A DNA stretch of 56,774 nt from Reyranella massiliensis 521 (GTDB lineage Bacteria > Pseudomonadota > Alphaproteobacteria > Reyranellales > Reyranellaceae). The DNA is taken from positions 1-56,774 of the forward strand of contig CAMAYC010000016.1 in assembly GCA_945862125.1 (NCBI GenBank). The letters are read 5' to 3'. A program made the position numbers and the translations under genes. The notes beneath the pieces were generated by a model. The model worked only from the letters and a program-made list of their open reading frames with translations. It was not told where the DNA came from and made no database searches. Positions 13,924 to 21,069 of the stretch are shown in pieces (the first letter of the stretch is position 1; the number at the start of each line of letters is the position of its first letter).

Positions 13924-14673
13924 CTAGCCGTCCCATACGTTTTGCGGCATCGGCAGGCGGGCGAAGTCCGCCTCGACCAGCGGCCTGGAATGGGCCTGGC
14001 CCTCGCGTTCGAGCAGCATCATGTATTGCCGGACGTGCTGGCCGGAATGCCAGGTCGTGCGCTCCAGCAGTTCGTGCAGGCTTTGCGGGCCATAGTAGGT
14101 GTCGAGGCAGCGCGTGCCCGAGGTATCGCCAGCTGCCCACCAGTCGCGGAAGCGCTGGTGGACCTTGGTGCCATAGGTCACGAGATCGGCGGTCCCGGCG
14201 TCGGCGGCAGGTTCCTCGCGGAACATCGCCTGCACGAGGGTGATGCCCTGGTTGGCATCGAGAAAGGCGTCGACGACGCGGAAAAGATGGAACCCCAGCG
14301 CGCGATAGCTGCGTGGCCGGCCCGGCACATGGGTGTCTAGCCGGTCATGGGGCATCAGGGGGAGCAGCTCGAGTGCCGCGGTCATGAACTTGTCGAGTCG
14401 CGCGTATAGCTCGGCCGGCGAAAGCTCGGGCCCGGACTTCTCGTCGATGCCGAGGAAGTCGACGATCTGCTTGGTGCTCTGGCCGAAGGTGAATTTGTCG
14501 CCGCGCGACAGCACCGGGACCGAGCGCGCGCCAAGCTTCTGCAGCTCGGCCAGGCCGGCCGGATCTTCAAGGACGTTGACGGAAACGAAGTCGATCCCAC
14601 GGACCGATAGAAACTCTTTGAGTCTCAGGCAGCTGGTTCAACCGGGCTGCCAGAACACCTTGAATGGCGGCAT
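13924..14673 (-). CDS. Candidate selenoprotein: glutaredoxin-like domain (UxxC) fused to DinB-like domain
   Basis: Starts at ATG 14673 behind AAGGAG with six-base spacing. Codons 1-11 read MPPFKVFWQPG, codon 12 is TGA (14640-14638), codons 13-15 are TSC, and the frame then stays open to 13924, giving 249 residues if TGA is read as selenocysteine. The N-terminal part is a thioredoxin-fold domain: beta strand FKVFW, redox motif U-T-S-C, helix CLRLKEFLSVRG, then LGARSVPVLSRGDKF with the cis-Pro. The C-terminal part (about 75-249) is helical and DinB-like with WHSGQHVRQ. Two hairpins follow the TGA. If TGA is a plain stop, only a fragment from GTG 14514, lacking a ribosome site and the redox motif, would remain. 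Alternatives are a nonsense mutation or a sequencing error. Confidence 0.72.
14591..14637 (-). promoter_or_regulatory. Candidate bacterial SECIS element downstream of the TGA codon
   Basis: On the minus strand two non-overlapping hairpins follow TGA 14640-14638. Hairpin 1 is GAGACTC-AAA-GAGTTTC (14626-14610), 7 bp with one G-U pair, its loop starting after 18 bases. Hairpin 2 is TCGGTCC-GTG-GGATCGA (14607-14591), 7 bp with one G-U pair, loop after 37 bases and beginning with G. Bacterial SECIS elements are described as a short stem with loop about 16-37 bases past the UGA and a G early in the loop. Hairpin 2 meets the loop rule at the distance limit; hairpin 1 meets distance but lacks the G. 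Confidence 0.5.
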
Positions 14674-14695
14674 GCGGTACTCCTTTTGGTGAGAC

Positions 14696-15679
14696 TCAGT
14701 TGACGGGCTTGACGCCCAGCAAGTCAAGGGTCGCCTTCCATCCCTTGAAATCCGAGGCGAGCCGCGCCGCCATCTCGGCCGGCGTCGAGGTCTCGACGCT
14801 GAGGCCCAGTTGCTGAAGCTGCTCGGAGACTTCGCGCGACTGGAGAACCGCCCGCAGTTCGGCGGTCCAGACCGCGACCAGCGCTGCCGGCATGTCGGGA
14901 GGCGCGAAGAAGGCATACCAGTTGGTCTGCACCAGCTTGGGGTACCCCAGCTCGACCACGGTCGGCACCCTGGGCGCAATCGGGCCGCGCTTGGCGGCGG
15001 AAGTCATCAGAATTCTCAGGCGGCCGCCGCGCTGGGGCACGAGGAAAGAGGTGATGCCGCCAGTGCCGGCGGGGATGCGGCCCGTCTCGAGGTCGGCGAC
15101 CAGTGGCCGCGCCCCATTATAAGGCATGGCCTCGAGCGGCACGCCGATTTCGCGCCCCACCAGGGTGCCGAAATACTGGGTGAAGGAATCCGGAGTCGTG
15201 GTGCCGAACCGGGCGCGGGTTGCATCGCCCGCCTTCAGCCAGGCGACATACTCGGCAAGCGTCGTGACGTCGATTTTCGGCGAGACGGCGAAGGTCGTCG
15301 GATAGGTGCCGGCGAGCGTCAGCGGCAGGAGGTCGGTCAAGGGATCGAACGGGAAGTTTTTCTTGACCAGTCTCCCGACCATGGTCGCGCTCGGCATGAA
15401 GGCAATGACGCTGCCGTCCGTCGGCGCCTTCTTGAGGACCTCGCCGGCCGCCACACCTGAAGGGCCGGGTTTGTAGTCGACGGTGACGCTGCGCGAGAGC
15501 TGGGTTTGCAGGGCACCGGAGATGACATGCACCAGGGAGTCCGAACCGCCGCTCGAAGGAAAACCGACCAGGATGCGGATCGGTTTGTGCGGCAGGCCCG
15601 ACTGGGCGCGGACGATCGCAGGTGCCGCGAGGGCGGCGCCGGTCGCGATCAGCCAGCGGCGGGTGAGGGGCGCGTTCAT
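14696..15679 (-). CDS. Tripartite tricarboxylate transporter (TctC/Bug-type) substrate-binding protein
   Basis: 327 aa from ATG 15679. The N-terminus has a Tat-like signal (TRRWLIATGAALAAPAIVRAQ). The mature part follows the Bug pattern: KPIRILVGFPSSGGSD, VTVDYKPGPSGVAAGEVLKKAP, and late VPTVVELGYP. These periplasmic proteins bind carboxylates for TctAB membrane partners; no tctA or tctB is in the window, which is common for orphan Bug proteins. It ends 22 bases before the candidate selenoprotein gene on the same strand, so the two may be co-transcribed. Confidence 0.87.
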   Translation of the reverse strand: MNAPLTRRWLIATGAALAAPAIVRAQSGLPHKPIRILVGFPSSGGSDSLVHVISGALQTQLSRSVTVDYKPGPSGVAAGEVLKKAPTDGSVIAFMPSATMVGRLVKKNFPFDPLTDLLPLTLAGTYPTTFAVSPKIDVTTLAEYVAWLKAGDATRARFGTTTPDSFTQYFGTLVGREIGVPLEAMPYNGARPLVADLETGRIPAGTGGITSFLVPQRGGRLRILMTSAAKRGPIAPRVPTVVELGYPKLVQTNWYAFFAPPDMPAALVAVWTAELRAVLQSREVSEQLQQLGLSVETSTPAEMAARLASDFKGWKATLDLLGVKPVN

Positions 15680-15734
15680 GTGCTTTGTATGCCGAAGACA
15701 ACGCCGCGGATGGGCAAAAGTGCCAACGGCTGCC

Positions 15735-16121
15735 TCAGGCCGGCGGCTTGTGGCAGACGATGCAGACCTTGTTGCCGTCGGGGTCGCGCAGATAGGCGCC
15801 ATAGTAGTTGGGGTGATAGTGCGCCCGGATACCCGGTGCACCCTCGTCCTTGCCGCCGGCCGCCATGCCGGCCTTGTAGGCGGCGTCGACGGCGGCGTGG
15901 GTCGCGGCCTCCAGGCCGACCGTGATGCCGTTGCCCACCGTGGCGGGTTTCCTGTCGACCGGCTTCAGGATCCAGAGCTGCGGCCGTCCGCCGGCCGGTC
16001 CGTAACCGGCGGCGTTGGGATAGTCGGCATGGCGCACGAGGCCCAGCGGATCGAGCAGGCTTTCGTAGAAGCCCTTGGCCTTGCCGATGTCGTTGCTGCC
16101 GATGGTGACGTGGCTGAACAT
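15735..16121 (-). CDS. VOC (glyoxalase/bleomycin-resistance) family protein
   Basis: 128 aa, one vicinal-oxygen-chelate domain. It begins MFSHVTIGSNDIGKAKGFYESLLDPLG, with the metal-ligand His near residue 4, and ends HPNYYGAYLRDPDGNKVCIVCH, with the usual Glu position near the end occupied by other residues (NKVCIV). The role is likely lyase or isomerase-like; substrate unknown. Confidence 0.85.
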   Translation of the reverse strand: MFSHVTIGSNDIGKAKGFYESLLDPLGLVRHADYPNAAGYGPAGGRPQLWILKPVDRKPATVGNGITVGLEAATHAAVDAAYKAGMAAGGKDEGAPGIRAHYHPNYYGAYLRDPDGNKVCIVCHKPPA

Positions 16122-17487: not shown

Positions 17488-20400
17488 TCATTGTGCGGCG
17501 GGCGCATAGACCGCCGCAAGCTGGCGCGACACCAATCGTGCGTAGAGTCCGCCACGCGCGAGCAGCAGCGCATGCGTGCCGCTTTCCGCTACGCGGCCCT
17601 CGTCGAGCACCACGATCAGGTCGGCGTCGCGTACGGTCGACAGGCGATGGGCGATGACGATGGTCGTGCGATCGGCTTTCAGCACGTCGAGCGCGCGGCG
17701 CACCGCCTGCTCGTTCACCGCGTCGAGATGCGAGGTCGCCTCGTCGAGGATCAGGATCGGCGCGTCCTTCAGGAAGGCGCGCGCGATGGCGACGCGCTGG
17801 CGCTGGCCGCCGCTGAGGCTGGTGCCGCGCTCGCCGACCGGCGAATCGAGGCCCTGCGGCAGGGCTGCCACGAGTTCGGTGAGCGAGGCATGCTCGATGG
17901 CGGCTGTCAGCTCGCCCTCGGTGGCGTCGGGCCGGGCAATCAGGATGTTGGCGCGCAGCGTGTCGTTGAACAGGTAGGTGTCCTGCGCCACCAGCGCCAC
18001 CAGGCCGCGCAACTCGTCGAGCTTGTAGCCGCGGAGGTCGGCGCCGTTCAGGGTGATGCGGCCGGAGTCGGGATCCCAGAAGCGCATCAGCAGCTGCGCC
18101 GTCGTGGTCTTGCCGGCGCCCGACGTGCCGACCAGCGCCACCGTCTTGCCGGCGGGAATGCCGAACGTGACATCGGAGAGCGCTCGACGCGATTGACCGG
18201 GATAGGTGAAGTTCACCTTCTCGAGCGAGAGCGCGGCGGCGCCCTTGCGCGCCGGCACGCCCTTGCCGTCGCGCACCGGGATCGGCTCGTTGGCGAGCGC
18301 ATAGACTCGCCGCGTAGCACCTAAGGTGTCCGCGAGCTGGCGGCCGATCTGGGCGATTTCAGAGACTGGCAGGAAGGCCGCCATCGCCAGCACGGTCATG
18401 AGCGGCAGCAGGCCGGCGTCGAGCATGCCGCGCGACGACAGGATCGCACCGGTGACGACCACGGCGAGGCCGCCGAGGCCTGTCAGCACTTCCAGGATCG
18501 CGTGCTGGAGCGTGAGTTCGCTGAAGAAAGGCAGGCGCAGCGAGATGTGGCGCTGCGAAAGCTCGTCGAGCTTGTCGCCGCGCGAACGCTCCTGCTGGAA
18601 GGCCACGATCTCGCCCAGGCCCTGCACCGAATCGACGGCGAAGGCGCCGAGTTCACCCGCCGCTTCGCGCGCCTTGGAGCCCAGCGTGTCGACGCGCTTC
18701 CGCATCAGGAAGGGGCTGAGGCCGACGGCCAGCAGGAACGGCACCAGCGCCAGCGCCAGCCAGCCGTTGGCCGAGGCGAGCGCGATGACGACGGCGGCCG
18801 GCACCAGGATGGCCACGAACGCCGGCGCCACGGTGTGGGCGAAAAAATACTCGACCAGCTCGATGTCGTGCGTGGCCAGCGCCATCAAGTCGCCGGTGCG
18901 GCGGCGCGTCAGGTAAGCCGGTGCCAGCGCGTCGAGCTTGCGGAAGGCGTCGATGCGCATCTCGGCCAGCAGGCGGAAGGCCATGTCGTGCGCCATCCAT
19001 GATTCGAACCAATGGAGCACGCCCGAGACCGGCGCCAGTACGGCGAGCGCGATGGCGAGGCCGGCATAGGGCTGGCCGTCCTTCAGCGCGAGCACGATCA
19101 GCGCCGACAGCACGCCGATGCCAATGAACGACATCACGCGCAGCACGCCCAATATGAAAGTGCCGGTGAGCTTGCCCTTCCAGGGCATGATCACCTTCAT
19201 CAGGGCCATCACCACCTGGTACCAGGTCAAGCCTTCGGCCTTGATGATGCCTTCGGTCACGGCCTTGATCGCGCCGCCCGGCGTGTCGGAGACGGACTCC
19301 GCGCGTACCGGCGCCTCGATGAGGTCGGCCGTGTCGCCGGCCTGCTGCTCGCGCGCCTGCTCCGCCATCAGCGTCGCATAGACGCCGCCGCGGGCCATCA
19401 GCTCGGCATGGCGGCCTTCTTCGGCCACCTTGCCGCCGTCGAGGACGAGAATGCGGTCGCAGTCGATCACGCTCGAGAGGCGATGCGCCAGGATCACCGT
19501 CGTGCGGCCGCGCATCAACCGGTCGAGCGCCTCCTGGATCACCGCCTCGTTTTCGGCGTCGACGGCACTGAGCGCCTCGTCGAGCACCAGGATCGGTGTA
19601 TCGCGCAGCAGCGCGCGGGCGATGGCAACGCGCTGACGCTGGCCGCCCGAGAGCTTGATGCCTTTCTCGCCGATGATCGTCCGGTAGCCCTGCGGCATGT
19701 TGCGGATGAAGTCGTGGATGTTGGCGGCGCGGGCGGCGGCCTCCAGCTCCTGTTGCGAGGCATCGGGCCGGCCAAGCCGGATGTTCTCCTCGACCGTGCC
19801 GTGAAAAAGGAAAGTGTCCTGGTTCACCACCGAGATCAGGGACCGGATCTGCTCGAAGCTCAGCGCCCGCAGGTCGTGGCCGCCGAGCGTGATGCGGCCG
19901 GTATCGGGATCGTAGAAGCGCAACAGGAGGCGGACGATCGACGACTTGCCGCCGCCGGAGGAGCCGACCAGTCCCAGCCGCTCGCCCGCCGCCGCGGTGA
20001 AGGTGAGGCCGTCATGCACCGTGCGGCGTGTGCCCGGATAGGAGAAGCGTACACTCTCGAAGGCGATCGTCGGGCTGAGCGCCGCGCCAAGCTTCGCCGG
20101 CGCGGCATCGGCCACCGACGGCGCGTCGTCGAGGATGCGGTAGATGCCTTGCGCCGCGGACAGACCGACCATGCCCTGGTGCAGCACGGTTCTGAGTTCG
20201 CGCATCGGCCGGAAGATTTCGATGCCCAGCATCATGATGATCAGCAGCGAGGTGAGCGACATGGCGCCGGCCTCGACCCGCGAGGCGCCGTAGATGAGCG
20301 CCGCCGCGGCGCCGCCGGCGATCGAGGCGTCGGTGATGCCGCGCGCCAGCGAGTTGGTGCCCAGCACCCACATGGTGCGGCGGAAGAGATCGCGTGCTTC

Positions 20401-21069
20401 GACTTCGAGCTTGTCGGCGCGCGCCTTGCCCTGGCCGAATGCTTTCAGTGTCGCGAGGCCCTGGATCGAATCGAGGAACTCGGCGGCGAACGACTTGTAG
20501 GCGTTCATGCGGCCGATCGAGGCGCGCACGTCCCACTTGTGCCAGAGCGCGGGCGCAAACAGCGCCAGCAGCGCGAAGCCCAGCATGACCAGGGCCACCG
20601 GCAGGTCGATGAAGGAAACGACCGCGAAGATCAGCAGCGGCGAGAGCAGCGCGATCAGGAACTGCGGCAGGAACTGGCCGAAGTAGGTTTCGAGCTGTTC
20701 GACGCCATCGATCATGGAGAGCGTGAGGCCGCCCGAGCGCTGGCGGCCGACCGTGCCCGGTCCCAGCGACGCCACTTTTTCGTAGAGGGTGCGGCGGAGC
20801 GCCTTTTGCACCCGCGCTGCCGTCTCGTGCGCCACCACGGCCCGCCAGTGCTCGGCGGCGCCGCGCAGCACCATGACGAAGGCGATCAGGACGACCGGCA
20901 ACACAAGCTCCGGGAGGGGCCGGCCCGTAAAGACCTGGCCGATCAGCCAGCCCAGCAGGCCGAGGCGGGCGATGCCCAGGCCGACGGCGAAAAGGCCGAT
21001 GGCGACGGCACCGGCGATGCGCAGGCGCACACCTTTTGTGAAGACGAGGAGGCGAGGTTCGATATGCAT
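17488..21069 (-). CDS. Fused double ABC exporter (TMD-NBD-TMD-NBD), CydDC-like layout
   Basis: 1193 aa. First half: membrane domain about 15-320, then a nucleotide-binding domain with Walker A GSSGGGKSS (about 369-377), LSGGQRQRVAIARALL (about 473) and ILVLDEAL. Second half: membrane domain about 625-905, then Walker A GTSGAGKTT (about 983), LSGGQRQRVAIARAFL and ILILDEAT. Both sites look complete. Each half alone resembles type-I exporters such as CydD/CydC, but here they are one polypeptide. Substrate unknown. It is divergent from a LysR gene 65 bases away and precedes the flavin monooxygenase. Confidence 0.88.
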   Translation of the reverse strand: MHIEPRLLVFTKGVRLRIAGAVAIGLFAVGLGIARLGLLGWLIGQVFTGRPLPELVLPVVLIAFVMVLRGAAEHWRAVVAHETAARVQKALRRTLYEKVASLGPGTVGRQRSGGLTLSMIDGVEQLETYFGQFLPQFLIALLSPLLIFAVVSFIDLPVALVMLGFALLALFAPALWHKWDVRASIGRMNAYKSFAAEFLDSIQGLATLKAFGQGKARADKLEVEARDLFRRTMWVLGTNSLARGITDASIAGGAAAALIYGASRVEAGAMSLTSLLIIMMLGIEIFRPMRELRTVLHQGMVGLSAAQGIYRILDDAPSVADAAPAKLGAALSPTIAFESVRFSYPGTRRTVHDGLTFTAAAGERLGLVGSSGGGKSSIVRLLLRFYDPDTGRITLGGHDLRALSFEQIRSLISVVNQDTFLFHGTVEENIRLGRPDASQQELEAAARAANIHDFIRNMPQGYRTIIGEKGIKLSGGQRQRVAIARALLRDTPILVLDEALSAVDAENEAVIQEALDRLMRGRTTVILAHRLSSVIDCDRILVLDGGKVAEEGRHAELMARGGVYATLMAEQAREQQAGDTADLIEAPVRAESVSDTPGGAIKAVTEGIIKAEGLTWYQVVMALMKVIMPWKGKLTGTFILGVLRVMSFIGIGVLSALIVLALKDGQPYAGLAIALAVLAPVSGVLHWFESWMAHDMAFRLLAEMRIDAFRKLDALAPAYLTRRRTGDLMALATHDIELVEYFFAHTVAPAFVAILVPAAVVIALASANGWLALALVPFLLAVGLSPFLMRKRVDTLGSKAREAAGELGAFAVDSVQGLGEIVAFQQERSRGDKLDELSQRHISLRLPFFSELTLQHAILEVLTGLGGLAVVVTGAILSSRGMLDAGLLPLMTVLAMAAFLPVSEIAQIGRQLADTLGATRRVYALANEPIPVRDGKGVPARKGAAALSLEKVNFTYPGQSRRALSDVTFGIPAGKTVALVGTSGAGKTTTAQLLMRFWDPDSGRITLNGADLRGYKLDELRGLVALVAQDTYLFNDTLRANILIARPDATEGELTAAIEHASLTELVAALPQGLDSPVGERGTSLSGGQRQRVAIARAFLKDAPILILDEATSHLDAVNEQAVRRALDVLKADRTTIVIAHRLSTVRDADLIVVLDEGRVAESGTHALLLARGGLYARLVSRQLAAVYAPAAQ

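Follow-up and report, generated by a model that had tools for sequence, protein, structure and literature searches.

The question raised by this locus is whether a TGA codon inside an otherwise open reading frame is a stop or is read as selenocysteine (Sec). The frame lies on the minus strand of a 56,774-nt stretch of Reyranella massiliensis 521 DNA (contig CAMAYC010000016.1, positions 1 to 56,774; this whole stretch is called the window below). It runs from an ATG at 14673 to a TAG at 13924–13926, and its sole interruption is the TGA at codon 12. An initial annotation, made from the sequence, had described a strong AAGGAG site ahead of this ATG, the codon order MPPFKVFWQPG, TGA, TSC and about 237 further open codons, and had proposed a candidate selenoprotein, a glutaredoxin–DinB fusion with Sec at the first redox position. 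On direct reading the coordinates and the motif were correct, with 237 sense codons from codon 13 to the TAG. Because the TGA is conserved in the position of a Cys and a conserved predicted hairpin follows it, sequence comparison indicates that it is almost certainly decoded as Sec. The product is probably a 249-residue selenoprotein in which a U-T-S-C glutaredoxin (U, Sec) is fused to a predicted metal-binding domain of the DinB/YfiT type.

We compared codon 12 in relatives of the gene. After identical sequences had been removed from the fetched loci and matches spanning fewer than about 230 residues had been dropped, 81 distinct genes remained, in which codon 12 was TGA in 70, TGC in 8 and TGT in 3; TAA, TAG or any other codon was found in none. 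The initial annotation had remarked that glutaredoxins carry Cys at exactly this place, and homologues indeed have Cys or TGA there and nothing else. It had also named a frame broken elsewhere in close relatives as a sign against a selenoprotein, but a second internal stop was present in none of the listed matches. Since only TGA, TGC and TGT occur at codon 12 and no second internal stop was seen, the TGA-interrupted frame is confirmed as real, far beyond chance.

A search of GTDB contigs yielded 50 loci, of which 49 cover codon 12, and all 49 have TGA. Several of these come from the same genomes as the matches of a protein search of the order; the titles of the 50 loci are mostly Reyranella, Enhydrobacter aerosaccus, Rhodospirillales, Alphaproteobacteria and Proteobacteria, with a few metagenome-assembled genomes titled Asaia or Rhizobium. 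Three isolates are among them, namely Reyranella massiliensis 521 (L094), Reyranella soli NBRC 108950 (L072) and Enhydrobacter aerosaccus ATCC 27094 (L067). As TGA stands at codon 12 in 49 of 49 loci, these isolates included, a private mutation or a sequencing error, which the initial annotation had wished to see excluded, is ruled out, and so are a recent mutation and a pseudogene, because the TGA recurs in independently assembled genomes and in isolates.

In the protein search of the order (76 genomes) some match was found in 69 genomes, and 68 hold the fusion family, each with a match carrying one in-frame TGA; G026, with a weak glutaredoxin match only, was excluded. The reading of codon 12 itself covers the fetched loci; where a match of this search was not fetched, the listing shows one TGA but not its position. 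The TGA form sits on one of two contig pieces in G054 and G059, and on a truncated piece in G047. Eight genomes of the order (G001, G004, G018, G026, G042, G048, G050 and G073) have no gene of the family, and in 2 of the 68 a stop-free paralogue accompanies the TGA form (G058, 44% identity; G063, 39%). In a sample of 385 genomes of the class the family was found in 32, as the TGA form in 19 and as the stop-free form only in 13. One of these genomes, G378, has both the TGA form and a stop-free copy and is a natural case for studying Sec/Cys exchange. For the copies in G058 and G063, for G438 and G408 and for the second copy of G378, stop-free status was taken just from the search listing. A tree of Sec and Cys forms requires three changes, one of them forced by well-supported branches; it was drawn from the midpoint with unsettled bootstrap, and no direction of change is claimed from it.

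The same codon could be a true stop, behind which a separate DinB protein would start inside the frame, with the glutaredoxin part as a decayed remnant. Public records agree with such a start: all seven TGA-type records examined begin past the TGA, five at codon 16 and two at codons 32–34 (the Reyranella soli record is 234 amino acids long and starts MRLKEFLS), and this is the truncation, with loss of the active site, that the initial annotation had foreseen where TGA is annotated as a stop. However, among 57 distinct close relatives codons 5–11 are invariant as protein in all and codons 13–23 in at least 56, and a start at codon 16 would have to use CTG in 56 of the 57; in the 81 genes codon 12 has never drifted to TAA or TAG. 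In addition, U/C12, Cys15 and the cis-proline P53 are invariant in all of 51 sequences, a set made up of the window protein and 50 of 60 candidates, near-copies being left out. A stop with restart was thus ruled out by the conservation of the flanking codons, the lack of TAA or TAG and the CTG at codon 16, and we regard it as very improbable. The best 120 of 1,933 homologous protein records are at most 239 residues long. A correct record bearing U was not found among the homologue matches listed; the identity search is blind to U, and such a record may exist.

We then turn to the nucleotides that follow the TGA. In the full-gene set of 56 distinct close relatives, the mean synonymous entropy of codons 16–29 is 0.117 bits as against 0.883 bits elsewhere, below that of all 179 other 14-codon windows, whose minimum is 0.37. 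Several codons that are rare in the rest of the gene are kept after the TGA: Phe is TTT in 56 of 56 (4.2% in the rest of the gene), Arg is AGA in 53 of 56 (0.1%) and, at another place, CGT in 56 of 56 (7.4%), and Leu is CTA in 55 of 56 (1.2%). The drop is milder in 14 distant TGA genes (0.749 vs 1.208) and is not seen in 11 Cys genes (1.14 vs 1.09, from few codons).

When 39 distinct 54-nt stretches after the TGA were aligned, a single consensus hairpin emerged, in which columns 34–39 pair with columns 45–50 and 234 of 234 cells are paired; the initial annotation had said nothing of such an element. Two of the pairs show double changes, from U-A to C-G in 4 sequences and from U-A to G-C in 1, and a strand-sliding control abolished the hairpin. 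The loop bases CGUG are invariant across the 39 sequences, and all six pairs together with CGUG are kept in 13 of 13 distant TGA genes. At the same place in the Cys homologues the hairpin is absent in 11 of 11 (25 of 66 cells pair, all six pairs in none), and none has CGUG. The distance from UGA to the loop of the conserved hairpin is 36 nt, and the 5-nt loop CGUGN has its G second; the optimum fold of the window itself has 7 bp, a GUG loop and a distance of 37 nt. For the bacterial selenocysteine insertion sequence (SECIS), PMC13188914 gives a loop of 3–9 nt, a stem of 4–16 bp, a G in the first two loop positions, a distance of 16–37 nt from the UGA and a minimum free energy of at most -7.5 kcal/mol. 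The conserved hairpin falls within this geometry in loop, stem, G position and spacing, and over the 51 nt after the UGA the energy is -7.5 kcal/mol or lower in 39 of 39 sequences. A second, nearer hairpin (14610-14626), attractive in the window, was tried as the conserved element and rejected.

Whether Sec can be made was judged from the window genome (5.2 Mb in 271 contigs, 97.6% complete). All the genes that the initial annotation had proposed to look for were found: tRNA-Sec (71.4 bits; called SeC by ARAGORN, anticodon tca), selA (573 bits) and selB (444 bits) on contig C155, and selD (300 bits) on contig C48. A formate dehydrogenase alpha gene on C155 (1405 bits) has its own single in-frame TGA, followed by HGP, in agreement with the UHxP motif that PMC13188914 gives for this enzyme. 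With tRNA-Sec, selA, selB, selD and the TGA-HGP of formate dehydrogenase all present, the organism looks like a working Sec user. On C155 (L151, G000:C155:1-10724) fdhA, selA, selB and selC share one contig, with other frames in both intervals, fdhA–selA and selA–selB. On C48 (L152, G000:C48:15000-24000) selD lies within a 763-codon frame with a Cys-type active site, CGGCGAK; the N-terminal part of this frame has what we take to be an NADH-dehydrogenase-like look.

Across the order, SelB scored over the cut-off in 72 of 76 genomes and tRNA-Sec was found in 71; G001, the sole genome outside the family Reyranellaceae, has neither SelB nor tRNA-Sec nor the fusion gene. In the class sample, 59 of 385 genomes have a tRNA-Sec match at E <= 1e-9; four of these score 52–55 bits, and none of the four holds the fusion family. 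tRNA-Sec is present in 17 of the 19 genomes with the TGA form, G437 having SelB only and G086 neither, and in 3 of the 13 stop-free-only genomes tRNA-Sec occurs together with SelB over the cut-off. These three (G131, G132 and G269), with a stop-free form despite tRNA-Sec and SelB, are further natural cases for Sec/Cys exchange. Matches to tRNA-Sec at 47–53 bits were left uncounted in this comparison; the lower matches of the window genome, two of them named tRNA-Ser, fall in the same range. Fisher's exact test gave p = 4e-5 (18/19 vs 3/13) and p = 2e-4 (17/19), values that are generous, since related genomes are not independent.

Because the frame continues past the TGA, its translation needs some residue to be inserted, and a suppressor or a reassigned code could in principle supply Trp, Cys or another amino acid instead of Sec. 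Against this, TGA is a stop elsewhere in the genome, for example in the adjoining upstream TctC gene, homologues have Cys and never Trp, the Sec gene set is complete, and the hairpin goes with the TGA form. Recoding as Trp or by a different code was ruled out, as TGA ends the TctC gene and Trp is not seen in homologues, and insertion of any amino acid other than Sec is scarcely credible.

The domain structure of the product was examined with profiles and a predicted structure. Pfam Glutaredoxin (PF00462) matches residues 6–60 with 40.5 bits (cut-off 22.9), and DinB_2 matches 48 of the 51 family members at E <= 0.01, the best at 1e-8. The structure, predicted with a pLDDT (predicted local distance difference test) of 94, consists of a glutaredoxin and a DinB/YfiT four-helix domain. 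The glutaredoxin–DinB fusion is thus borne out by profile matches and predicted fold, and the invariant P53 agrees with the thioredoxin-fold cis-proline noticed earlier. In the DinB domain H129, H209 and H213 and seven further residues are invariant in 51 of 51 sequences, and the three histidines are predicted to be the metal ligands. Fold and residues together make it likely that this second domain binds a metal and resembles a thiol transferase. A GST_C domain (glutathione S-transferase, GST, C-terminal) was not matched by the window protein at E <= 1, nor is it among the families matched at E <= 0.01 by the 51 members.

Several observations weigh against this explanation. The conserved hairpin alone reaches -7.5 kcal/mol in 23 of the 39 sequences, that of the window lying at exactly -7.5; folding of the first 51 nt past the UGA gives an unexceptional energy (z -1.32); a scan of 14500-14750 with Rfam gave no match; and the nearer hairpin has 83.9% of its cells paired, with weak covariation. 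Neither tRNA-Sec nor SelB was found in three genomes with the TGA form, G086 (77% complete), G016 (89%) and G032 (60%), and in G437, G024 and G029 the TGA form is accompanied by SelB but tRNA-Sec was not found. Were the bare gathering score of 47 bits taken as the threshold for tRNA-Sec, matches would be counted in 8 of the 13 stop-free-only genomes; five of these eight (G361, G155, G438, G408 and G231) score 47.7–52.5 bits, and SelB is over the cut-off in none of the five. In 7 of 75 Reyranellaceae genomes (G018, G026, G048, G050, G073, G004 and G042) the gene was not found although tRNA-Sec was, and six of the seven, all but G042, also have SelB; the gene is therefore dispensable. In the window protein Pfam DinB_2 (residues 129–216) scores 22.1 bits, slightly below its cut-off of 24.8. 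Finally, no neighbouring gene is conserved across lineages (21 regions), so that the substrate is only a guess.

The chemistry of the glutaredoxin domain is known, whereas the partnership of the two domains and the use of Sec in this protein family were found nowhere in the open-licence literature searched, and no report of a DinB selenoprotein was found there. By profile, the best relatives in PDB are the glutaredoxin chains 7c10 and 7c12, titled cGrx1, which we take to be a clostridial native selenoprotein. In NCBIfam the window protein falls below every cut-off, the nearest being TIGR02196 (40.6 vs 88.55) and NF041212 (33.6 vs 66). The latter and its kin, the Uxx-star proteins, are alike as a glutaredoxin-like selenoprotein domain and match 51 of 51 members at E <= 0.001, but the model has 70 positions and lacks the DinB part. 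Table 1 of PMC13188914, with 119 families or subfamilies, enters a Sec glutaredoxin with UxxC as experimentally verified, and a DinB protein or such a fusion is absent from that table; it includes the Haft and Tolstoy families, and a groundwater survey is said there to hold further candidates. The window protein resembles the Sec glutaredoxin (PF00462) in domain, Sec position, UxxC motif and cis-proline. However, glutaredoxins are described as small oxidoreductases (PMC13188914), while in the window protein about 150 residues of DinB domain come after the glutaredoxin; the fusion family is spread over Reyranellaceae and further genomes of the class. The DinB/YfiT superfamily (bacillithiol transferases BstA-H, mycothiol S-transferase, maleylpyruvate isomerase) has the same four-helix fold that is predicted here; in the window protein, however, the domain is fused behind a glutaredoxin, and it shares no more than 20% identity with the listed DinB-type structures. 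A GST-like selenoprotein (PF13409) of the Sargasso Sea set (PMC1088965, PMC13188914) has a thioredoxin-fold N-terminal domain in common with it. GSTs likewise have a helical C-terminal domain after the thioredoxin fold, but the GST_C profile is the one left unmatched here.

From these data a working scheme may be proposed. SelB loaded with Sec-tRNA would dock on the hairpin, which lies 36 nt beyond the UGA, and Sec would be inserted. Other UxxC and CxxC glutaredoxins act on glutathione mixed disulfides or similar oxidised thiols; judging from the family and the invariant residues, the selenol would attack such substrates here, with Cys15 resolving. H129, H209 and H213, which stand in the order found in bacillithiol transferases, would hold a divalent metal, and the metal could activate a low-molecular-weight thiol, in these bacteria probably glutathione, which would then be passed to an electrophile. 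In a more speculative last step, the selenol would reduce a thiol adduct or mixed disulfide that the DinB domain has formed or is holding. As our best guess of function, a selenol glutaredoxin would work together with a metal-dependent domain resembling a glutathione transferase. That the coupled domains form a selenium-boosted enzyme of detoxification or repair is a tentative proposal, which may well prove wrong. Still more tentatively, the protein might be the founding member of a bifunctional family, in which glutathione adducts of electrophiles are formed or held at the metal site and then reduced by the selenol.

It could also be that the protein is a selenoprotein in which DinB is a structural or sensing module, the whole serving as an ordinary thiol reductant for MsrA or peroxiredoxin-type partners. 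CxxC glutaredoxins are general reductants, in one relative (L140) the gene lies about 50 nt downstream of msrA, and, to judge by its title, a reference in PMC13188914 deals with the reduction of a Sec MsrA by a Sec glutaredoxin. Yet the three presumed ligand histidines and seven more DinB residues are invariant in the 51 sequences, and because these ten residues do not vary we argue for an active site in DinB rather than a spacer; a plain reductant seems rather unlikely to us.

The features of the locus with their coordinates are collected in Table 1.

Table 1. Features at and around the predicted selenoprotein gene in the window
Feature	Coordinates	Strand	Remarks
Sec-glutaredoxin/DinB fusion gene	13924..14673	-	249 residues + TAG stop; frame read with TGA as Sec
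DinB/YfiT four-helix domain (predicted), residues 82-236	13966..14430	-	H129, H209, H213 invariant
Glutaredoxin domain, residues 1-78	14440..14673	-	W8, U/C12, S14, C15, K19, P53 invariant
Codons 16-29, predicted SECIS footprint	14587..14628	-	synonymous sites nearly invariant in close kin
Predicted bacterial SECIS hairpin, 6 bp, CGUG in apical loop	14591..14607	-	pairing in 39 distinct sequences
Second, nearer hairpin, predicted in the window	14610..14626	-	weakly conserved in distant relatives
In-frame TGA, codon 12, predicted Sec of the UTSC motif	14638..14640	-	TGA 70, TGC/TGT 11, among 81 distinct genes
Ribosome-binding site AAGGAG	14680..14685	-	6 nt upstream of ATG; direct reading
TctC-type transporter receptor gene	14696..15841	-	context; 22 nt upstream
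Glyoxalase (VOC) family gene	15735..16121	-	context; best-conserved upstream neighbour in close kin

The neighbourhood was compared in 45 loci of close kin (44 GTDB loci and the window). In 41 of them a relative of the VOC gene (PF00903) is found upstream in the same orientation, within 300 nt in 14 and farther away in 27; because 27 of the 41 are more than 300 nt away, a functional partnership with the VOC gene is only a hint. A directly adjoining TctC relative within 300 nt upstream was seen in 21 of the 45 loci and a DUF883-like relative directly downstream in 24. A conserved operon was rejected, as neighbour clusters span at most 4 of 21 regions. In other lineages the nearest same-strand gene codes for an Oxidored_FMN flavin oxidoreductase (L143, PF00724; similar frames in L144 and L145), MsrA (L140), a GST (L141), a metallo-beta-lactamase-fold protein (L150, a Cys-type locus), a chromate transporter (L136; similar in L135), a ferric-reductase-like protein (L137; L139 alike by eye), a phosphoenolpyruvate-utilising enzyme (L131) or a TauD dioxygenase (L148). 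In three related genomes the flavin oxidoreductase gene has the same orientation as the fusion gene and ends 15–30 nt upstream of it; in L140 (G128:C48:58000-74000) about 7 kb separate the fusion gene from tRNA-Sec within one contig. Outside close kin the neighbours thus appear to drift towards redox and detoxification functions, with nothing fixed. Farther away in the window, 17488-21069 encodes a protein of 1193 residues in which two ABC transporter units, each with membrane part and ATPase, are fused into a single chain.

Formate dehydrogenase is given as the primary use of Sec in such bacteria (Mukai 2021, PMC8124441). The fusion protein is a second predicted selenoprotein, beside formate dehydrogenase, for a family of Alphaproteobacteria, and its natural Sec/Cys pairs, with the hairpin present or absent, form a clean set on the gain or loss of Sec. 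The fusion also makes the link between selenium, glutathione and a DinB metalloenzyme directly testable. If the bifunctional reading were true, Alphaproteobacteria would have a reason besides formate dehydrogenase for keeping selenocysteine.
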